This document shows positions 1-12,408 of a stretch of 12,550 nt of DNA, piece after piece. Source of the DNA: Acidobacteriaceae bacterium. Lineage in GTDB: Bacteria > Acidobacteriota > Terriglobia > Terriglobales > SbA1. The notes beneath the pieces were generated by a model that was not told where the DNA came from, ran no database searches, and worked only from the letters and a program-made list of their open reading frames with translations. Location of the stretch: contig PMHI01000547.1 of the NCBI GenBank assembly GCA_003156615.1, positions 2,307 through 14,856 on the forward strand, in the 5' to 3' direction. The number at the start of each line of letters is the position of its first letter. Within the stretch, counting starts at the first letter, position 1. The position numbers and the translations under genes were made by a program.

Positions 1-3000
1 ACTGCCATCGCGGTGCTCTCGACGCGGCCAGCATGTCCCCAGCCGTAGAACGGAGTGTTGTGTTCAAGGACCCAGTACGTGCCAGCTCGTTCTGGAGTTG
101 CCATTTTGATAAGCTTCAGAATCGAGTCGGAAGCGCGTCGCCGATCGCCGAAATTAGAGGTCGCGATGGCGAACTCTGCGAGCGCGTAAGGTTCACTCAG
201 ATCACGGTGAGGATCGGACAGATAAGCGAGAGCGCGTGAAACCGACTGGTGAAGAATCTTCTTCAGTGGGTCGTTCGTGCTATTTTCGGATGCCGCCAGA
301 ATGACGGTGATGTAAGCGGTAAGCCCGCTGTCATCGTATCCATACTTCGGTTGCCAGTGGCCATCTTTCGCCTGTTGCTCAATGAGCCATTTCTCGGCAT
401 CAGGGATGATCGCGGGATCCACATCGGTGAAAGCGGAGGCGCCTGAGAGGAAGCGCAAGGCGTAAGCAGTGAGCGCCGCATCCGGCGAACCGTGGCCCCA
501 ATAACTGAACCCTCCGCCGGACTCGCGATAGTTAAGCAAACGGTGATAGCCGAGGCTGACATAGCGACTCGCCCGTCCCTGGATCGGGGCACTCGTCACG
601 CCCAAAGCTTTGTAGTATGTCAATAACAGGACACTGGGATATGTCGAAGATAAAGTTTGCTCGCCACAACCGTAAGGACGCTCAAGTCCGGCCTCGATGC
701 TCTCGGTGACCTGCGCCAACAGGTTGGGATAAATCTTCAGCCGCGCACGCACACTGCCCGGAATTAAATTGGCCGGTAGGCTCAGCGAAAGCGTAGAGTC
801 GCCGCGGAGAATGCCCGCCGCGGTCGACGTTTGGTCCCGGCCGTTGGGGTGAACAGTAACTGTCTTCTCGACAGCATCGCCAGTGGTACGGTTGGCGCCG
901 TAGACCTGCTGTTTGCCGGCCTTCACCATCGCAGTTGCACGAAACGGGAATGTGGCAGTCATCGATTCGCCAGCTCCGACCGAAATCTCCTGTTTGCCGG
1001 GACGCTCCAGCTCGAACCAAGTCGCGAGCTTCATTTCAACGCTGAGTTCTTGTGCCTCTGGAAGGTAGTTGCGCACCACAACCGGAAGCTCGATCTCATC
1101 GCCGATGGTGAGAATCTTCGGCGGGTCATGCTCGAGGAAGAATGGCTGGAAGGCCTGGATCTCGCGGTCTGCGACACCGATCTCTCCAGTTTTGTTGGAC
1201 GCCAGCACAGTCATCTTCCAGGTTGTGATGTTGTCCGCAAGTTTGAATTTGACCAGAGCGCGACCGTTGGCATCGGTGGTGACCGAAGGGGACCACAGGA
1301 GAGTTTCGGGAAAGTAATCACGCAGCCGCGGTGTAAATGTCTCTTCGTGAACCTGAACTCTTGTTCCTTCTGCGACCTTGTTAACCACCATGGATGAGCT
1401 CTGTGTCTGGACGCTGAGAGCATTTGCCGTAACCTCGACCGTTTCCGAAACCGACCCAACCTGCAAAGCAAGGTTTACAGCCGTAACGCTGGTGGAATGG
1501 ACTGGCACCGTGCGGATTTGTGTGGCTCGAAATCCGGGAGCAGAAATGGTGATGTCATAGGTGCCAGGGGGAATGTTACGAATGATGTAGGCGCCGTCCG
1601 CTCCCGTGGTCACAGTGAATTGCTGACCGGTCTGGCGGAGAGTTGCAATCACAGTGACGTTCGAAATGACAGCGCCACTCGGATCGGTCACGATGCCGTT
1701 GATCGCACCAGTGTTTCCGCTGAGCGGCTCAGAATGAACGGACTGTGGAATGATGTCTTTCCCGCTTCGCTCGTCAATATCACGAGAGAAGCTGGCGACG
1801 GAAAAGTCATCCGGCGTTTTCGCTTTGCCGTCCGAGCCAGGACTCATGATGCGAATCCACGCGAGTTTTCGAGTTACGGGGGTGGCGGTCTGGACCCTGG
1901 CGTCTGGTTGGTAGGTAATGCGTGTGGCATCGCCATACTCCGACTCGACGCTGTAGGTGACGTAATAAGCATGCCCCCAAGGATCAACCAACTGGCGGAA
2001 GTTGACGCCACTGTCCGACATGGCTTTGTCGAATGCTTCGTTGTCTTGAGGAAATATCCCTGTGGAGCGAGAGAGTTTGTAAATCGCGGAATCGATCTTT
2101 CCGCGAGCCTGCTCAAAATAGTCGATTGCGCTGGTCCATATGGCGAACGGCCCGTAAGAATATGGGGCGACATTGTGGCCGGTGCTTTGGACGATGACCT
2201 GATAGAGCGAGCCGCTGGGCTGGAAACTGAATGCGTAAGGATTACCCCAGGGATCGCGAATCGCTTTAAGATCAAGTCCGCGTGAACGCACAGCAGCGCG
2301 AAGCGCATCAAAGTCGCGGATGTACGCACCAGAGGAAGCGTAAGTCTCCTTCACGACCCGGTCGATGATCTTTCCCACCGGTTGGAAGTAAGGCCAGCTA
2401 ACGGTAAGAACCTCGATATCATCGGCCGTACCCAACTGCTTGTCGGGGCCGGCAGATAGGATGTTCAGGGTTCGATTGCGGTAGTCGATGCCAAAACTGT
2501 AATGATACGGCGCGCCCCAAGGATCGACGATGCTGGCAGGGTCAAGCCCGGCCCTCCGGAGCACGGCCGACAGCTCATCGTTGTTGGTCGCAAACTTCCA
2601 CGCCGTCGAGTCTTCGTTGAGAAGGGCTTTGCGGACGGGTTCAAGTTCATTCCGCATCTTGTCCGAGAATAGCGACCGGGTTTCGTATCCGTAGTTGTTG
2701 CCTTCGATCTCCGGCAAACCGGCCCGGGAGTAACTATTTTCCTCGAGAAGCATCTCGGCGACGAGATCCATGCCGTCAGCCAACGGTTTCGAAAGATCAA
2801 GTTCATCGAGGTCCCTGAATGAGATTCCACCAACGGACTCTGGTGGATACCACCAGCCCCAGTCCCAGAAACCGTAGTGCCCTTCCCCAAATTCCTGGTC
2901 GGTGCGAATGCGTTCGTCTACCGCTTTGTCGACCACGACGACTCCCAACGCGCTGGCGGAAGTGGAGCCAGATGGCGGGCTGACATTGAGGACGGCGGAC

Positions 3001-5096
3001 ACCTCGTCCCCTGGCTTGTAAGTGGCGCGGTCCGTCTTGACTTTCACGGTCAGGGTTGACGGAGTCGGAAACAGAATGGCTCGGGCACCGGACGGGATTT
3101 CGTAGCGTTCTTCACTATCTGCTTCGAGCGAATACGCTGCAAGTGTCAGCTCGCCCTTGAACTCGGGAGCATAGGGGATGACGGTGAATCCTCGATGATT
3201 GTGCAGACCAATCCGGCCAGTCCACAGGACCGCTCCGTCGTGCGAGAGATCAACGATTACGTTTCCCGGCGGTGCGTTGGGAGCGCGAACAGAGACGGTA
3301 ATCTGATCTTTTGCCCGATAGAGCGACTTGTCGGTTGTGACTTGGATCAGCTTGTCGGAGTCGCTCCAAAAAACCTCGTCATAAGAAGCGGCAGCTCCGG
3401 TTTTGTCGTGAACGTCGAAAACAAGCTGATAGCCATGGTTGCGGCTGGAATCGTCGTCGCGTTCAGTCAATAGTTGCAAGCCGGACACTTTGGCCACGCC
3501 GAACCGGTTGGGCTTGATAGCGCGAAGAAAATCCCTGATGCCGGATGACTCGAGCTCGTAGTAGTTTCTGTAGTGGTTCCGGTCTTCGCTGACATTGACG
3601 TGGCACTCCGCCGGCGTGCCGTCGGGATAATAGGTGGAAACATAAAAGGATGCCCGGTCTCCACTGAGGTTCATGCCCGAAACATAGACGTGAATCGGCT
3701 GCTGACTGAGGCGAACCTGGAAGCGGCGTTGCTCGGTCTTCCCCGTGCTGGGATCGGTGACATACGCCGCGTAATGAAGGTCCATGAGGCGCCTGAACGT
3801 CTGCTCTGCCAGTTCGCTGTGCAGCTTCGTGAAATCAAGCGTAAACGTCGCGCGGCCAGAATGGTCGAGTTCTGCCGACTGACCATCAGCTTCGTCCACT
3901 ACCCATTTGTGTTGTGCGGAGTCCCAGTGACCCTGCTCTTCGCGAACCATTTTCACGGCGCCCTGAGTGAGCTCTTTGCCAGACAGGTACTTGGCAGATA
4001 TGGCGACCGATGCGTTCTGCCCAGGCAAATAGTAGGAGCGATCCGGCTGGGCTGCGACGGTAAAATTAGGGAGATCGTAACGGCTGACGCGAACGTTCGT
4101 CATCGCCTGAGCGCTACCATAACGGTCACCTGAGAGCGAGACTTGCAGCGCATAGGATCCGAGTTCCGCAGAGTCGGGTAGCTCCCAGTCGATGTTGGCA
4201 ATTCCGAAGTCGTTCGTTTTTGCGGCACTGCTGAATAGCGTATTCGACTCTGGATCGACAAGCTTGAACTCAGTGTCTTGGTTTGTGACAGCGTGCTTGT
4301 CCGCACTGAGCACAAGCGCGCGGGCATGTAGTGATTGGCCCGGCTGATAGAGAAGCTTGTCGGTATTGATAATGATGCGAGCCCGCGGATCGAGGTCGAA
4401 GTCGAAATCTTGCTTCCGCGTTTGATCGCGTTTCCGAGCTTCAATGTTGACTGAGCCACCGTCAGTGACCGCCGCTGGAATCTGGAAGAGAAGAACAGCA
4501 TCGCCAGATGCGTTTGTGGTATGCGTTATGACCGCCTGGTTCTGGTTCGCATCGAATTCCAGTTCGCCGCGAACCTCCACGCCATTCACTGGCTTCCGCG
4601 TAACCGGGTTGGCCGCGTGTACACGCACTTGATAAGGCTGGCCGGGTAAGGCTTTATCAGCGTGCCCAACGCGGAGTTCGAACATGTCAGGGGCGATCGC
4701 TCCCAGGGCAACCACGCCACTAGTGGCTAGCTCTTCACCCATCAGAAGCCGGTACTTCACGCGATACCAGAGCGCCGGGTCATTGGCGGACGCCGTGGGG
4801 ACTGCCGGTCGTGGCAAGGACAACTTGATTAAATTGCGTCCGGGTTTGAGGTCTTCAGTGGTTTTGGATGACGCTACGACCGCGTCTTTGGGATCGAGCA
4901 GATCAACGTAAAGAGTCCCGGAGACAGCTGTTTCGGACTCGTTCGAAACGGATGCGCTCAAGGCGACTTCCTTTTCGGAAATGACTGCACCCATCTCTGA
5001 TTCGTTGATCCGAAGAGGTGCGGAACTCGCGAGCAGACGCGTCGAGATGGCGGCGAGGAAAATGGCCAGCAAACGAATGCGTTGCGCAGGTCGCAT
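1..5096 (-). CDS. Secreted thioester alpha-2-macroglobulin family protein (partial, C-terminus outside window)
   Basis: Bacterial alpha-2-macroglobulins are exported protease traps: a protease cuts the bait, the protein closes, and the thioester captures the attacker. The frame is open for 1698 codons from ATG 5096 to the window edge. An in-frame TGA two codons upstream fixes this as the earliest start; I see no strong Shine-Dalgarno. Residues 1-25 are a Sec signal (Arg-rich, then hydrophobic) with no lipobox Cys, so it is probably soluble rather than a lipoprotein. Macroglobulin beta domains fill about 30-710. The bait-region domain signature VVVVDKAVDER lies around 719-729. Three DPWG modules follow (820-1103), then a carboxypeptidase-regulatory-like domain (about 1128-1225), then the A2M domain signature RDYFPETLLW (1259-1268) and the thioester PYGCGEQ (Cys1477, Gln1480). 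The thioester domain continues off the window; the rest of that domain and the C-terminal receptor-like domain should lie beyond base 1. Family assignment is firm; the protease target is unknown. Confidence 0.95.
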   Translation of the reverse strand, partial: MRPAQRIRLLAIFLAAISTRLLASSAPLRINESEMGAVISEKEVALSASVSNESETAVSGTLYVDLLDPKDAVVASSKTTEDLKPGRNLIKLSLPRPAVPTASANDPALWYRVKYRLLMGEELATSGVVALGAIAPDMFELRVGHADKALPGQPYQVRVHAANPVTRKPVNGVEVRGELEFDANQNQAVITHTTNASGDAVLLFQIPAAVTDGGSVNIEARKRDQTRKQDFDFDLDPRARIIINTDKLLYQPGQSLHARALVLSADKHAVTNQDTEFKLVDPESNTLFSSAAKTNDFGIANIDWELPDSAELGSYALQVSLSGDRYGSAQAMTNVRVSRYDLPNFTVAAQPDRSYYLPGQNASVAISAKYLSGKELTQGAVKMVREEQGHWDSAQHKWVVDEADGQSAELDHSGRATFTLDFTKLHSELAEQTFRRLMDLHYAAYVTDPSTGKTEQRRFQVRLSQQPIHVYVSGMNLSGDRASFYVSTYYPDGTPAECHVNVSEDRNHYRNYYELESSGIRDFLRAIKPNRFGVAKVSGLQLLTERDDDSSRNHGYQLVFDVHDKTGAAASYDEVFWSDSDKLIQVTTDKSLYRAKDQITVSVRAPNAPPGNVIVDLSHDGAVLWTGRIGLHNHRGFTVIPYAPEFKGELTLAAYSLEADSEERYEIPSGARAILFPTPSTLTVKVKTDRATYKPGDEVSAVLNVSPPSGSTSASALGVVVVDKAVDERIRTDQEFGEGHYGFWDWGWWYPPESVGGISFRDLDELDLSKPLADGMDLVAEMLLEENSYSRAGLPEIEGNNYGYETRSLFSDKMRNELEPVRKALLNEDSTAWKFATNNDELSAVLRRAGLDPASIVDPWGAPYHYSFGIDYRNRTLNILSAGPDKQLGTADDIEVLTVSWPYFQPVGKIIDRVVKETYASSGAYIRDFDALRAAVRSRGLDLKAIRDPWGNPYAFSFQPSGSLYQVIVQSTGHNVAPYSYGPFAIWTSAIDYFEQARGKIDSAIYKLSRSTGIFPQDNEAFDKAMSDSGVNFRQLVDPWGHAYYVTYSVESEYGDATRITYQPDARVQTATPVTRKLAWIRIMSPGSDGKAKTPDDFSVASFSRDIDERSGKDIIPQSVHSEPLSGNTGAINGIVTDPSGAVISNVTVIATLRQTGQQFTVTTGADGAYIIRNIPPGTYDITISAPGFRATQIRTVPVHSTSVTAVNLALQVGSVSETVEVTANALSVQTQSSSMVVNKVAEGTRVQVHEETFTPRLRDYFPETLLWSPSVTTDANGRALVKFKLADNITTWKMTVLASNKTGEIGVADREIQAFQPFFLEHDPPKILTIGDEIELPVVVRNYLPEAQELSVEMKLATWFELERPGKQEISVGAGESMTATFPFRATAMVKAGKQQVYGANRTTGDAVEKTVTVHPNGRDQTSTAAGILRGDSTLSLSLPANLIPGSVRARLKIYPNLLAQVTESIEAGLERPYGCGEQTLSSTYPSVLLLTYYKALGVTSAPIQGRASRYVSLGYHRLLNYRESGGGFSYWGHGSPDAALTAYALRFLSGASAFTDVDPAIIPDAEKWLIEQQAKDGHWQPKYGYDDSGLTAYITVILAASENSTNDPLKKILHQSVSRALAYLSDPHRDLSEPYALAEFAIATSNFGDRRRASDSILKLIKMATPERAGTYWVLEHNTPFYGWGHAGRVESTAMA
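657..671 (-). other. Codons of the GCGEQ thioester motif of the macroglobulin
   Basis: These five codons give Gly-Cys-Gly-Glu-Gln, preceded by Pro-Tyr. In the alpha-2-macroglobulin/complement C3 family the Cys and Gln side chains form the internal thioester that bonds covalently to the captured protease. The motif is complete, so this protein should be the covalent-trapping type rather than the thioester-less YfaS-like type. Confidence 0.93.
1788..2639 (-). repeat. Three tandem ~90-residue DPWG modules inside the macroglobulin, pseudopilin-G-like
   Basis: The Asp codons of three DPWG motifs fall at residues 858, 948 and 1038, exactly 90 residues apart. Each is preceded by a similar helix-like stretch (AVLRRAGLDPASIVDPWG, AAVRSRGLDLKAIRDPWG, KAMSDSGVNFRQLVDPWG) and followed by aromatic beta-strand-like sequence (PYHYSF, PYAFSF, AYYVTY). 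Modules 1 and 3 end in an acidic loop (SAGPDKQLGTADDIEV; SPGSDGKAKTPDDFSV) like the calcium-binding loop of the type II secretion major pseudopilin GspG, whose C-terminal half also starts with DPWGNPY. Module 2 lacks that loop. The resemblance is by motif only; no alignment was computed. Confidence 0.75.
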
Positions 5097-5759: not shown

Positions 5760-6908
5760 TCAGCGCTCCGGAACCGAGTGTTGTTCCTCAAAGCAGGACT
5801 CCATACTCTTGAGGTCTACAGCAACACGGGCTTGTGAGCCCTCTGGCGCAGCTCTAAGATATTGAACAGGCCAAGAAATTGGCTGCCCAAGTTCGCGGGC
5901 CGCTCGCAATGGCCAATAGGGATCTCGCAGAAGCTCGCGGGCAATGATGACGGAGTCCGCCTGTCCGGAGCCGATAATGTGCTCCGCCTGAACGGGAGAG
6001 GTGATCATGCCAACCGCGCCGGTCAAAATGTTAGCTGCCCGCCGAATCTGCTCCGCAAACTGCGTTTGATAGCCTGGACCAACGGGAATCTTCGCACCTG
6101 GCAAGTTGCCGCCAGAAGAGCAATCAATAAGATCTACCCCAAGTTTCTTCAGTTCACGGGAGAGTTCGATCGACTGCTTGATATCCCAACCGCCTTCGAC
6201 CCAATCGGTCGCCGAAATACGAACAAAAAGCGGTGCTCCCTCTGGCCATGAACCACGAATGGCGGCAACCGTCTCACGCAGTATGCGCGTTCGATTGTCA
6301 AATGAGCCTCCGTATCTGTCCGTTCTTCGATTGCTCAGAGGCGACAGAAACTCATGAATCAGGTATCCATGAGCAGCGTGAACCTCAATAATGCTAAATT
6401 CCGCTTCGCAAGCACAACGCGCCGCGGCGCCAAACGCAGAGGTGATGTTCTTAATTCCCTCGATAGAGAGCTCATGCGGCATAGGATAGTGATCGGCGAA
6501 GCGCAATGCGCTTGGAGCACCGACATTCTCCCACCCCCCTTTGCTTTCTGGGACCTGTCCGTAGCCTGCACCAGGCGGGTAAGTGCTCGCTTTCCGACCA
6601 GCGTGCGCTAGCTGGATACCAGCAACGCTTCCTTGTTGGTGAATAAATCGGACAATTCGAGCCAGTGGCTCGATGTGTTCATCCTTCCATATCCCCAAGT
6701 CCTGTGGACTGATCCTGCCTTCGGGAAGAACTGCGGTTGCCTCGGTGAGCACCAGTCCAGCCCCGCCGACCGCCCGGCTACCCAGATGCACGAAATGCCA
6801 ATCGTTCGCATATCCGTCAGTACTGGAATACTCGCACATAGGCGAAACGAATACGCGATTCGCCAGCGTTATGTCCCGAATCGTGAGCGGATCAAACAGA
6901 TGAGCCAT
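5760..6908 (-). CDS. Old Yellow Enzyme family NAD(P)H:flavin oxidoreductase, YqjM/NamA class
   Basis: This is an FMN-dependent ene-reductase that reduces activated C=C bonds (enals, enones, some nitro compounds and xenobiotics) with NAD(P)H; it should be cytoplasmic. The 382-residue protein begins LFDPLTIRDITLANR, typical of the class. Cys25 and Tyr27 in SPMCEYSS match the redox-tuning Cys and substrate-binding Tyr of YqjM. His177 and His180 in HAAHGYL are the substrate anion-binding pair, with Tyr182 behind them. RTDRYGGSFDNR and the phosphate-binding end ARELLRDPYWP (about 323-333) complete the TIM barrel. Upstream of ATG 6908 is a G-run (GGGGGAT), a modest ribosome binding site. Relatives usually end shortly after WPVQYLRAAP; here about 28 further residues follow with no recognisable motif. 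It is downstream of, and in the same direction as, the broken dps gene. Confidence 0.95.
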   Translation of the reverse strand: MAHLFDPLTIRDITLANRVFVSPMCEYSSTDGYANDWHFVHLGSRAVGGAGLVLTEATAVLPEGRISPQDLGIWKDEHIEPLARIVRFIHQQGSVAGIQLAHAGRKASTYPPGAGYGQVPESKGGWENVGAPSALRFADHYPMPHELSIEGIKNITSAFGAAARCACEAEFSIIEVHAAHGYLIHEFLSPLSNRRTDRYGGSFDNRTRILRETVAAIRGSWPEGAPLFVRISATDWVEGGWDIKQSIELSRELKKLGVDLIDCSSGGNLPGAKIPVGPGYQTQFAEQIRRAANILTGAVGMITSPVQAEHIIGSGQADSVIIARELLRDPYWPLRAARELGQPISWPVQYLRAAPEGSQARVAVDLKSMESCFEEQHSVPER

Positions 6909-6955: not shown

Positions 6956-7396
6956 AGGCCGTGATGTTTCAAATAGGAACCAGATGTAGCGCCGGGTCTG
7001 ATCGAGCCAATTTTCGATGACGCCGGCCGTAGCCGCATCGCCCTAATCATGGCACAGGACATGTGCCTGAAGCATTTTCACTGCGAGTCCCTTTTCATCT
7101 TCGCAAACTTCACCCCGTATGTCCTCAAAATCGACAAATGGCTCATTGTCAGCTATTCGCTGCAGTTGGATCGTCGTTCGACCAATCTTGCGCACACGCT
7201 CAGCGATGTCGTCCGTCATAGCGAGGATCTGGTCCGCGCGTTCGTCCAACAGCAGATGGTAGTCGAAGAAACGCGGCCCACTCATTTGCCAGTGGAAGCT
7301 CTTGGTCTCGAGATAAGAGCAAACGACAAGGCTGCCCTAGTGGCCAGTGCCCTACGCAGCATCGTTCCGACGGCTGAAAGTCCTATGTTTCGCCAT
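6956..7396 (-). pseudogene. dps: Dps mini-ferritin pseudogene (DNA protection during starvation)
   Basis: Intact Dps proteins form a 12-mer that oxidises and stores iron using peroxide and shields DNA. From ATG 7396 one frame reads through TAG codons at 7352-7354, 7337-7339 and 7043-7045 and still gives Dps-like sequence. YLETKSFHWQMSGPRFFDYH and then LLLDERADQILAMTDDIAER hold the ferroxidase-type His, His, Asp and Asp/Glu residues. After the third TAG comes GVIENWLDQTRRYIWFLFE, the family's final helix. About eight residues of the usual GGTTLRSIGHIxRLQR segment are missing after GRTT. The N-terminal helix seems to switch frame around 7310-7340 (ALATRAALSFAL lies in the neighbouring frame). 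Multiple lesions make sequencing error unlikely. The exact 3' limit is uncertain: the next in-frame stop is at 6869-6871, inside the flavin enzyme gene. Confidence 0.88.
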
Positions 7397-7443
7397 TTCT
7401 TTTCTGTTTTCTGCCGGTACTCGTGGTCGCAAGCAGAGGGTCG

Positions 7444-8824
7444 CTACGGCAGGCTTGCCGGCGCGAGACCCAGCATGAAGCTCGTCCGCTGTAGTGCTGC
7501 GCTGGATGCACCGTAATCCTCGACGAGCCCCGTGCCAGCGAAGCGCCGGTAGTTGCTTGTCTCGCCCGCAAGCTGCTACCTGCACGAACTCCACCGACTG
7601 TGGCGCACCGGGAATACGTGCGCCGAACCAATGCGGGTCGTCCCGCTGTGCCCAAGTGACGAGCGCCAGCACCGCACCCGGCGGAGCGGGTTGGCGTGCC
7701 AGCGCGGCTCGCATAGCTGCGTCGTTGCCGTAGAGTGTTGCCATCGTGCGTGTCTTAGGATCGACGTACATCGTGATGGCGCCCCAACCTAGCGGCTGAT
7801 ATGGCAGGTTCGCGGGAAGCGCAGCGGCGTTATTCACAACTTCCTCGCGATCGACCTTGGCAGGTGAGATTGGCGGCGTGTAGACGTAGTCATTGCCGTG
7901 CAGCGGCCGGTGGCAGCCCGTGCACTCATTCACGAAGTCCGCGTTCTTGCCGTAGGGCATCAGGTTCATGCCGCGCCAGCGTCCCCAGCCCCAGCCCTCA
8001 GTGTCTTTGAAACGTTGCGCGTCTTTCAGCATCAGCTCTACCTGCACGAACTTGCCAGGGTACACCAGGCCATCAGGGCCGGACTGCTGCTGCCAGGCAA
8101 TCTTTGCAAACCGCGCGCCGTCGGGCCAAGGCGAGGTGTTGCCTGTTTGCGCCGCCGTTACGGCCACGTCATTTCCAAGGATGAACCGGAAGGTATTGTT
8201 GTCGCCGCGATCCGTGGTGCTGATCGGCTTCCAGCTTTCGAAGGTGGGGTCGAATGGGAATCCGTTGAATTCCGGACTCACCGCCTCCAGAGAGACACGC
8301 GCTGGAATCTCCGGGGAAACGATAGACGGCCCCTCTTCAGTCTTTCCGTTGTTAGGTTGCTGCCCGTTGCCGATCGGGCTCAGCGCAGGCGTCCACGGAG
8401 CCAGATACTGCTTCAATGTTGATAGCTCTTCGGGTGTCACCTTCGCCTCCGGATGCAGCTTGAGGAAGCTCGGCAGCGGCATCGCGCCGAGCTGGATCAT
8501 GTTCACACCCTCGTACAGCATCGCCTTCTGTACGGCGGGGGGCTTGGAGCCCAGTGTCGAGAAGTTGAGGTGCTCGCGCGCGATTAGGATGTCGTGCCGC
8601 ACGAGCCAGTATGCGGGTACGATCTGGTCGAACCAGGCGAGCCGGCGTTGGTCCGAGTGGCAGCTAGAGCAGTCTTTTTCCAGGATGTCCTTGACGTCAG
8701 GTGGTGTCTGCAGCTCGGCCGTCGCCGGCTTAACCGGAATGATGGGTCGCACCACCTGCAGCACCGCGAAGACAAACACTCCCGCTACGATCAGTTTGCC
8801 AATCGTCCTCATTGAACTCTTCAT
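7444..8824 (-). pseudogene. Dihaem haem-binding / cytochrome P460 domain protein with a C-terminal frameshift
   Basis: This is a predicted exported c-type cytochrome. Residues 1-28 form an N-terminal membrane anchor or signal. A haem-binding domain follows (about 40-145) with CSSCH at 52-56 and the family pattern WLVRHDI...REHLNFS. The cytochrome P460-like domain (about 185-415) carries CTGCH at 301-305, after GWGWGRWRGMNLMPYG. P460 haems oxidise hydroxylamine or nitric oxide in nitrifiers; the acidobacterial role is unknown. The original frame diverges at residue 418, near base 7571. Dropping one T there restores YRRFAGTGLVEDYG and RTSFMLGLAPASLP, ending at TAG 7444-7446; this is the C-terminus I expect for the family. 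The unshifted frame instead runs on to 7352 with unrelated residues that enter the dps start. ATG 8812 may be the true start, since GAAGAG precedes it. This could be a real mutation or a base-call error. Confidence 0.88.
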
Positions 8825-10185: not shown

Positions 10186-12408
10186 ATGACCACCGCCGCT
10201 CGACGTTCTTTCATGCTCTGCCTGATAGCCGGTTTGTTGGGCTCACTGGCAGCTGCTCAATCCACCAGCTCTTCCCAATCGTCCGCCGTTGTACCGCGAT
10301 TGGTGAACTTCTCGGGCAAGGCCGTTGCTGAGGGAAAAGTGATCACCGGCGTGGCAGGCGCCACCTTCGCTATCTATAGCGAAGAGTCCGGCGGGTCTCC
10401 GCTGTGGCTGGAAACCCAGAACATTCAGGCCGACACCAAGGGCAATTACACGGTTCAACTGGGAACGACGAAGCCCGATGGTTTGCCGCTCGATCTGTTT
10501 ACTTCCGGCGAAGCTCGCTGGCTCGCCGTGACGATCAATGGTGGGCAAGAACAACCGCGCGTGCTCCTACTCAGCGTGCCTTACGCGCTCAAGGCAGCCG
10601 ATGCAGAAACTATCGGCGGACTTCCGGCGTCGGCATTCGTACTGGCTGCTCCGCCAACTGCCAACGCTCCAAGCGCGATGAGTGGGAATAAAACAGATTC
10701 GGTCACCTCAGCGACATCCTCCGACGTAACCACTACGGGGGGCACAGCGAACACCTTTCCTTTGTTTACCACTGCCACCAATGTTCAGAACTCGATTCTG
10801 ACGCAGGCGAGCACCACCGCGATCAATGTGCTGGGGAAGCTCAATCTGCCCGCGTTAGGCACGGCTACGGCCAGTAAGGGTTTCAACTCGCAGCCTCAGG
10901 ATTTCGTAGCCTCCGCCTACAACAGCACTAGCAAAGCTGCCGTAGCACAAACCTTCCAATGGCAGGCCGAATCGGCCAGCAACGATACGGCCACGCCCTC
11001 GGGCACGCTGAATCTGCTCTATGGGTCGGGCACAACCACGCCGGCCGAGACCGGCCTGAAGATCAGCAGTAAAGGCCTGATCACGTTCGCCACCGGACAA
11101 ACCCTTCCAACCGTAAGCGGGAATGAGACGGTGAGCGGAAACCTGAGCGCGACCGGTGTGGTGACAGGAAGCAGCTTTGAGATCGGCAGCAACCTGTTCG
11201 CCTTCGGCTCCGATGCGGACGGGAACGCATTTCTGGGCTTCGGTGGGAATACGACGATGACAGGCGGAAGCAACACCGCCACCGGCGTGACGGCACTCCA
11301 CTCCAACACCACGGGCTCGAGCGACACCGCCAGCGGGGTGAACGCGCTCCTCAGCAACACCACGGGCTCCGACAACACGGCCACTGGGGCATACGTGCTC
11401 TCCTACAACACCACGGGCTCCTACAATACGGCCAGCGGAGCGGTCGTTCTCAACAGCAACACCACAGGCTCCGACAACACGGGAAACGGGGCGTTCGTGC
11501 TCCGCGACAACACCACGGGCTCCGACAACACGGCCAGTGGGGCGTACGCGCTCTACTCCAACGCCTCGGGCTCAAGCAACGTGGCCAGCGGGGCGTACGC
11601 GCTCTACTCCAGCACGAGCACCAGTAACATGGCCAGTGGGACGTACGCGCTCTATTCCAATACCACGGGCGCCAGCAACACGGCCGTCGGGTCAGACGCG
11701 CTCTACAATAACAAGACTGGCAGCTACAACACCGCCGTAGGCGCTATAGCGGGACCGGACCCAAGCACCCCCGGCCTCACGAATTCCACGGCCATCGGGG
11801 CATTTGCCGACGTGACGGAAAGCAACGCGCTGGTGTTGGGTTCGACGGCTGCCCAGAACGGTATCGCCAACGTTCTTGTGGGGATTGATGTGCCCAGCCC
11901 CACGAACATTCTGACCGTGCTGCAAGGCGGGGGCAACGCCATCGCCGATGGCTGGTCCACCTACAGCTCCCGCCGTTGGAAGACCAATATTCATCCGCTC
12001 GAGAACGCATTAAGCAAGGTCGAGCAATTGCGGGGCGTCTCCTACGACCTGAAGGACTCCGGCAAGCACGAGATCGGCGTGATTGCCGAGGAAGTGGGAC
12101 AGGTAGTGCCGGAAGTGGTCAGCTATGAAAAGAATGGCAAAGATGCGAGGGGAGTAGATTACAGCAAATTGACGGCATTATTGATAGAGGCGGTGAAACA
12201 GCAACAGAAGCAGATTACGCAACAGCAAAACCTGATTCGCAAGCAACAGCGGCTGACGAAGGCACAACAACTGGAAATCAGCAAGCAGCAGAACTTGATA
12301 ACCACCCAGCAATCCGAGATTGCGGATTTGAGCGGTAAAGTTGGCGTGCTCGAGTCTAGCCTGCGCACCGGTCAGCCGGATAAGCCGGCCGTGCTGGCGC
12401 TCAAGTAA
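10186..12408 (+). CDS. Secreted tail-fibre-like protein with 17-residue repeats and C-terminal S74 intramolecular chaperone
   Basis: Residues 1-25 are a Sec signal ending LAAAQ. A beta-rich N-terminal domain (about 36-150) follows, then a Thr/Ser/Asn-rich stalk (160-355). Ten repeats of the form TGSxNTAxGxxALxxNT occupy 359-523, resembling the stacked head repeats of YadA-like trimeric adhesins and phage fibres. The S74 (endosialidase chaperone) domain begins about residue 592 with SSRRWKTNIHPL. Ser594 and Lys599 have the same five-residue spacing as the autocleaving Ser/Lys pair of phage endosialidase, so the tail probably cuts itself off after helping trimerisation. The last ~75 residues form a Gln-rich coiled coil (KQQQKQITQQQ...). 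Length is 740 residues. No phage genes adjoin, so I infer a cell-surface or secreted fibre, not a prophage tail. A strong terminator follows 16 bases after the stop, so it is probably monocistronic. The ligand is unknown. Confidence 0.92.
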   Translation: MTTAARRSFMLCLIAGLLGSLAAAQSTSSSQSSAVVPRLVNFSGKAVAEGKVITGVAGATFAIYSEESGGSPLWLETQNIQADTKGNYTVQLGTTKPDGLPLDLFTSGEARWLAVTINGGQEQPRVLLLSVPYALKAADAETIGGLPASAFVLAAPPTANAPSAMSGNKTDSVTSATSSDVTTTGGTANTFPLFTTATNVQNSILTQASTTAINVLGKLNLPALGTATASKGFNSQPQDFVASAYNSTSKAAVAQTFQWQAESASNDTATPSGTLNLLYGSGTTTPAETGLKISSKGLITFATGQTLPTVSGNETVSGNLSATGVVTGSSFEIGSNLFAFGSDADGNAFLGFGGNTTMTGGSNTATGVTALHSNTTGSSDTASGVNALLSNTTGSDNTATGAYVLSYNTTGSYNTASGAVVLNSNTTGSDNTGNGAFVLRDNTTGSDNTASGAYALYSNASGSSNVASGAYALYSSTSTSNMASGTYALYSNTTGASNTAVGSDALYNNKTGSYNTAVGAIAGPDPSTPGLTNSTAIGAFADVTESNALVLGSTAAQNGIANVLVGIDVPSPTNILTVLQGGGNAIADGWSTYSSRRWKTNIHPLENALSKVEQLRGVSYDLKDSGKHEIGVIAEEVGQVVPEVVSYEKNGKDARGVDYSKLTALLIEAVKQQQKQITQQQNLIRKQQRLTKAQQLEISKQQNLITTQQSEIADLSGKVGVLESSLRTGQPDKPAVLALK
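11260..11742 (+). repeat. Coding tandem repeat, period 51 bp (17 residues), ten units
   Basis: Units start at residues 359, 376, 393, 410, 427, 444, 461, 478, 494 and 511. All are 17 residues except the eighth (16), and the last is truncated. Consensus TGSDNTASGAYALYSNT. The DNA is also conserved: AACACCACGGGCTCC recurs in several units, and GGGGCGTACGCGCTCTACTC occurs twice, 51 bases apart. Units 6-8 are closest to each other, suggesting recent duplication. Copy number could vary by slippage or recombination. Confidence 0.9.

Follow-up and report, generated by a model that had tools for sequence, protein, structure and literature searches.

Three tandem pseudopilin-like domains at the bait site of a thioester-type alpha-2-macroglobulin from Acidobacteriota

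Which proteases trigger a macroglobulin trap is set by its bait site, the site that in complement came to give rise to a signalling fragment. Among the bacterial alpha-2-macroglobulins (A2M), the type I proteins ECAM (YfhM) from Escherichia coli and SaA2M from Salmonella consist of MG2, BRD, A2M, TED and receptor domains. The same set is found in the A2M-family protein analyzed here, whose open reading frame (ORF) is located on the minus strand at positions 3..5096 of a 12,550-nucleotide stretch from an Acidobacteriaceae bacterium (contig PMHI01000547.1; the whole stretch is called the window in the following). The ORF codes for 1698 amino acids with the C-terminus truncated by the window edge, and the complete protein P0001 has 1977. 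By its sequence it is a thioester-type (GCGEQ) bacterial A2M of the Acidobacteriota type. Unlike ECAM and SaA2M, it has four additional folded domains in the bait-site loop, and as judged from sequence profiles and a predicted structure, residues 802–1102 are three tandem domains sharing homology with GspG, the major pseudopilin of the type II secretion system (T2SS), over its globular part.

The first-pass annotation of this DNA had pointed to positions 1788..2639, corresponding to residues 820–1103, and to three DPWG motifs exactly 90 residues apart, which we indeed found at residues 858, 948 and 1038 with coordinates agreeing on the minus strand. DPWG is expected 0.006 times in the window protein and 5000 shuffles yielded at most one. 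The modules of about 90–110 residues each follow one another as module 1 (residues 802–903, positions 2388..2693, DPWG at 2514–2525), module 2 (904–993, 2118..2387, DPWG at 2244–2255) and module 3 (994–1102, 1791..2117, DPWG at 1974–1985), all on the minus strand like the other features of this protein, and their alignments 1–2, 1–3 and 2–3 gave z-scores of 12.6, 10.4 and 10.2 (1000 shuffles each). Module 1 is the one matched by Pfam T2SSG (residues 856–893, 28.4 bits versus a cut-off of 21), and the hhalign comparison with GspG reached 98%. Using a module profile built from a 36-row alignment, GspG were the only PDB sequences found under E 0.001. This alignment holds 36 of the 46 computed module references, the three modules each of L022, L028 and L035 as well as L074 being omitted; two further alignments hold 8 of 9 GspG and 6 of 7 rows, respectively. 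In reverse, the module profile picked up the GspG loci L099–L110 (9 of 12 in a large ORF set, 10 of 12 when a smaller set was used) with domain scores of 12.8–24.7 bits. AlphaFold confidently predicted a GspG-like helix-strand fold for the modules (pLDDT 90.8), with two helices before and three strands after each DPWG, in line with the helix and strands noticed earlier, and GspG structures were recovered in a second look with VIA-align using the predicted module fold. A phmmer search with the three modules alone gave no match to PDB sequences at E ≤ 10, Foldseek with the modules returned nothing at E ≤ 0.001 with GspG absent among the best 50 of 387 matches, and the NCBIfam gspG model scored the whole window protein with 18.1 bits, far under its cut-off of 88.85. 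DnaK, the top Foldseek match (E 2.3e-3), was judged implausible as a fold relative and rejected. As sequence profiles, Pfam and predicted fold concur, the resemblance to GspG holds. Identity, position, conservation and distribution of the domains have been established computationally.

The modules had also been placed at the bait site between A2M_BRD (residues 584–726, positions 2919..3347, PF07703, 34.5 bits), which reaches the first half of the bait-bearing macroglobulin (MG) domain, and the A2M domain (1265–1355, 1032..1304, PF00207, 79.1 bits). This location is correct, but a CarboxypepD_reg domain (1132–1212, 1461..1703, PF13620, 71.2 bits) and a disordered linker (1215–1253, 1338..1454) had been overlooked. 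Upstream, a segment that we call link by presumed analogy with C3 precedes the modules (727–801, 2694..2918), its end (~785–804) being weakly conserved and of low pLDDT. Conservation was computed across 95 full-length relatives, namely proteins of more than 1900 residues from the best 120 of 235 found. The modules show a mean pairwise identity of 0.38–0.44 versus 0.45 for MG2–5 and are steady in length, two four-module proteins aside, whereas the stretch 1214–1254 has an identity of 0.23 and varies from 39 to 62 residues. Residues 1215–1253 are the least conserved 40-residue window of the whole protein, with a pLDDT of 26–33 in blocks of ten, and the longest run below 50 is located there. From its pLDDT, identity and spread in length, this hypervariable linker downstream of CarboxypepD_reg is the likeliest bait. 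The modules are unlikely to serve as bait because they are folded and conserved, and the earlier idea that folded modules are presented as bait could not be upheld.

Domain and linker have counterparts in proteins of another kind. In a search of 297 Acidobacteriota genomes with the full-length A2M profile, the matches listed from E 5e-29 on all lie at about model positions 1099–1270, corresponding to CarboxypepD_reg and the following linker, in ORFs of mostly 1000–1300 residues among the matches listed. Four fetched places all match a profile of the CarboxypepD_reg region with E 1.3e-33 or better, and both places scanned by Pfam contain OMP_b-brl_4, an outer-membrane barrel used in TonB receptors. 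In several relatives the linker reads like a receptor start, as in LPINGRNLSNMDYLKPGA (P0070) and LPLNGRDATNIAALRPGA (P0058), compared with LPLSGRDTLQFAALTPG (L111). Thus a TonB-receptor fragment seems, from sequence comparison, to have been turned into bait, and since the modules are pilin-like and CarboxypepD_reg and linker are of receptor type, the cassette seems to have been assembled from parts of two envelope systems. A likeness to the start of Oar-type TonB receptors was also seen in the linkers of the window (1338–1454, minus strand), P0042, P0053, P0058 and P0070.

We propose, with a probability of roughly 55%, that the protein is a secreted A2M in which a rigid, calcium-stabilised cassette positions the linker 1215–1253 as bait, the cleavage of which leads to trapping. 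It would be a protease trap of thioester type belonging to the C3/A2M family. A folded cassette of three pseudopilin-derived domains, followed by one CarboxypepD_reg with its TonB-receptor-type linker, would occupy a loop in the MG domain that bears the bait, at the place where C3 has its anaphylatoxin domain. The cassette would not be the bait itself, it would be a protease-resistant arm that keeps the short bait at a distance from the body and restricts where cuts can fall. As in the A2M from E. coli, cleavage would then untether the segment that precedes the MG domain's second half, and so free the thioester domain to trap the protease. The anatomy of the modules and their placement are strongly supported; for their function we infer the mechanical arm as the most economical role.

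The calcium in this model comes from a loop known from GspG. In the structure from enterohaemorrhagic E. coli (3G20) calcium is bound by the main chain of P114 and V119 and the side chains of D117, T122 and D125 of PGPDGVPNTEDD (PMC3396595). The first reading had noticed acidic loops in modules 1 and 3, and we located them as GPDKQLGTADD (residues 883–893, positions 2418–2450) and GSDGKAKTPDD (1087–1097, 1806–1838), with none in module 2. The aligned side-chain ligands are D885, T890 and D893 in module 1, conserved in 94, 90 and 93 of the 95 proteins, and D1089, T1094 and D1097 in module 3, conserved in 90, 83 and 90. Module 2 has lost its ligands in the window protein, and among the relatives 51 of 95 have a relaxed and 1 of 95 a strict loop there. 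By sequence, modules 1 and 3 are thus probably calcium-binding.

According to PMC6692295, PulG without calcium misfolds near the calcium site, and one could imagine that the modules, or the variable stretch running into module 1, are the bait after all, being resistant with calcium bound and unfolded and cleavable without it, so that low calcium would be required for the trap to fire. Such a sensor would fit the ligands of modules 1 and 3, which are nearly invariant, as well as the strict loop seen in 221 of the 223 one-module relatives described below (among the matches listed). It would also fit residues 785–824, before and into module 1, which form the second least conserved 40-residue window; this weighs against the linker as the only bait and, on conservation and predicted structure, keeps residues ~785–824 in play as a second candidate. 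On the other hand, the triple family has a separate disordered and hypervariable linker downstream, the one-module relatives too have a long stretch from the module to the FPET motif (median 76 residues, 222 of 223 measured), and module 2 has been retained despite having no loop. We therefore regard a bait formed by the modules as unlikely: of the calcium-sensitive bait suggested earlier, the calcium sensitivity is plausible but the bait role is not supported.

Outside of the cassette, the window protein contains MG2 (residues 242–330, positions 4107..4373, PF01835, 83.4 bits) and a TED domain (1461–1678, 111.5 bits in Pfam) with the thioester motif GCGEQ (1476–1480, 657..671), while A2M_recep (PF07677) is present in the complete P0001 beyond the window end. 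The N-terminus of the protein resembles a Sec signal as judged by eye. In the full-length relatives the GC.EQ motif is present in 93 of 95, and a lipobox-like motif within the first 40 residues occurs in 1 of 95, suggesting that the A2M family with the triple module is apparently not made of lipoproteins.

To describe the distribution, genome contigs were scanned, which resulted in 77 loci. L001–L068 are labelled Acidobacteriota except L007 and L039 with other phylum labels, and L069–L077 belong by label to other lineages (Chthonomonas, Armatimonadetes, TA06, a deltaproteobacterium, Zipacnadia and unnamed bacteria). These nine have one module each at the same site, in frames of 1390–1642 residues (1142 in L073), with T2SSG over the Pfam cut-off in three of six scanned. 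Protein searches with module and linker matched 301 and 756 proteins, with relatives named Armatimonadota, KSB3, Hydrogenedentes, WOR-3, Cloacimonas, Poribacteria and others, and the best 120 of each search together contributed 223 distinct new proteins. Every one of the 223 has a single module, partly by construction as the module region served as query. That one-module relatives are type II A2Ms lacking the thioester was considered and dropped, since GC.EQ is present in all nine loci L069–L077 and in 214 of the 223 proteins among the matches listed. Five one-module proteins of ~1830–1850 residues (P0255, P0265, P0300, P0322 and P0342) have an extra PF13709, one of them being named DUF4159 protein.

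In the acidobacterial macroglobulins the insertion recurs, with three modules in 93 of the 95 full-length relatives and four in the other two (P0048 and P0085). The latter are without GC.EQ; the four-module L025 has it. At L097 (G010:C23:2000-13000) two module-bearing A2M frames are adjacent, the second having four modules in 1397 residues. One-module A2Ms also exist in Acidobacteriota (L083–L085 and L087–L090, some with weak scores and some with CarboxypepD_reg), L086 has by eye a degenerate single module, and in L091 without a module the distance from the MG6 start to FPET is 113 residues versus ~543 in the window protein. At E ≤ 1e-8 the triple module was found in 15 of 297 Acidobacteriota genomes; the full-length A2M profile matches 296 of 297, but it models whole A2Ms and is no measure of module prevalence.

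For a phylogenetic tree of 109 columns we hand-picked rows from 15 of the 95 proteins, six acidobacterial one-module A2Ms, seven of the nine from other lineages and six of the 12 GspG loci. For each of modules 1, 2 and 3 a branch has the copies of that module on one side (support 89/92, 74/82 and 98/89, respectively), establishing their orthology by position and suggesting that the triplication predates the spread of the family. Deep forks are weak, and the one-module rows form no single group, with the long-branched L074 falling within module 2. By sequence, A2Ms from other lineages have a one-module version at this site, which is tripled in Acidobacteriota. A copy number ranging from 1 to 4 might be taken to mean that the modules are inert spacers, accreted without a function of their own. 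We think this very unlikely, as the modules are conserved about as well as MG2–5, group by position and have nearly invariant calcium ligands in modules 1 and 3.

The homology to GspG also raises the question whether the modules bind a component of type II secretion or the type IV pilus and so recruit or localise the trap, as had been suggested before. As the T2SSG genome search was incomplete (it once missed the A2M of G001), the gspG model was searched as well. A pilin-like match to it occurs in all 15 genomes carrying the triple module, in 11 of them only under the cut-off, but GspG over the NCBIfam cut-off is present in only four of 15 and GspD in two, with one more just under. The family can thus do without a dedicated T2SS partner, and co-occurrence gives the suggestion no support. 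In addition, the modules lack the hydrophobic N-terminal helix by which pilins are driven to assemble, and cluster comparison around the 77 loci revealed no widely recurring neighbour family, which makes partner binding quite unlikely in our view. The largest neighbour cluster (19 loci) is TonB-receptor-like by eye and includes A2M pieces too; clusters with an S9 peptidase or a lytic transglycosylase as scanned member cover seven and six of the 77 loci. In several Acidobacteriota, such as L029 (4978–7248), L041 (5438–7237) and L043 (5248–7509), the S9/DPP4-like peptidase gene (scanned in L029) is located immediately upstream of the A2M gene and in line with it. In a number of bacteria the type I A2M gene adjoins PBP1c (PMC5764988). 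No penicillin-binding protein was found among the three window neighbours scanned; otherwise only recurrent neighbour clusters were examined. In the window the A2M gene lies beside an NADH:flavin oxidoreductase (5760–6908, minus strand) and near a haem-binding and cytochrome P460 protein (7352–8824, minus strand), and positions 10186–12408 (plus strand) code for a phage tail-fibre-like protein of 740 residues with a Peptidase_S74 chaperone domain and repeated TGSDNTA-type motifs.

Beyond the arm proposed above, a bolder idea is possible, if tentative: the captured pseudopilin might be a folded switch at the anaphylatoxin site, acquired independently of animals, in which the calcium-bound cassette presents the bait while holding the trap shut, until calcium loss or cleavage releases it, and which would define a widespread unrecognised macroglobulin class. 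This class would have three or four modules in Acidobacteriota and a single one in several phyla. A large class of macroglobulins from environmental bacteria in which a pilin domain was captured at the bait site would show that folded inserts there have a bacterial origin too, offer testable calcium sites and explain why some A2M relatives of 1000 to 1605 residues (P0231, P0272 and P0315) are misnamed type II secretion system protein GspG. These three names show that annotation pipelines do come upon the domain. In the openly licensed PMC literature we found no description of pilin-like domains in macroglobulins.

In comparison with known systems, the protein shares with ECAM and SaA2M the CXEQ thioester and probably also disorder within the MG domain that bears the bait (predicted here for residues 1215–1253), but its triple-module family differs in apparently not being lipoproteins. 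With the type II A2M MagD from Pseudomonas aeruginosa it shares the A2M fold with a bait (putative here), whereas MagD has no thioester (PMC5764988). Like GspG (PulG, EpsG, XcpT), the modules have the globular fold, DPWG and a GPD..DD loop with three side-chain calcium ligands; unlike this small separate protein, they are internal tandem copies in a protein of 1977 residues, with no prepilin leader, no hydrophobic N-terminal half helix and polar module helices. CarboxypepD_reg, linker and, in some relatives, an LPxNGR-type motif are shared with the N-terminus of Oar-like TonB receptors (CarboxypepD_reg plus OMP_b-brl_4), but here A2M and TED follow instead of a barrel and the linker is the probable bait. 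As in complement C3, C4 and C5, a folded insert is predicted at the matching place of MG6 before the alpha' N-terminus, and in the structural alignment of the predicted structure the segment after the insert begins at the alpha' N-terminus. The anaphylatoxin domain is a helical fold, whereas this insert is assigned to another one, with helix-strand modules predicted at high confidence and a profile matching GspG. In contrast to C3, C4 and C5, the place of the anaphylatoxin is thus taken by pilin-like modules and a CarboxypepD_reg domain.
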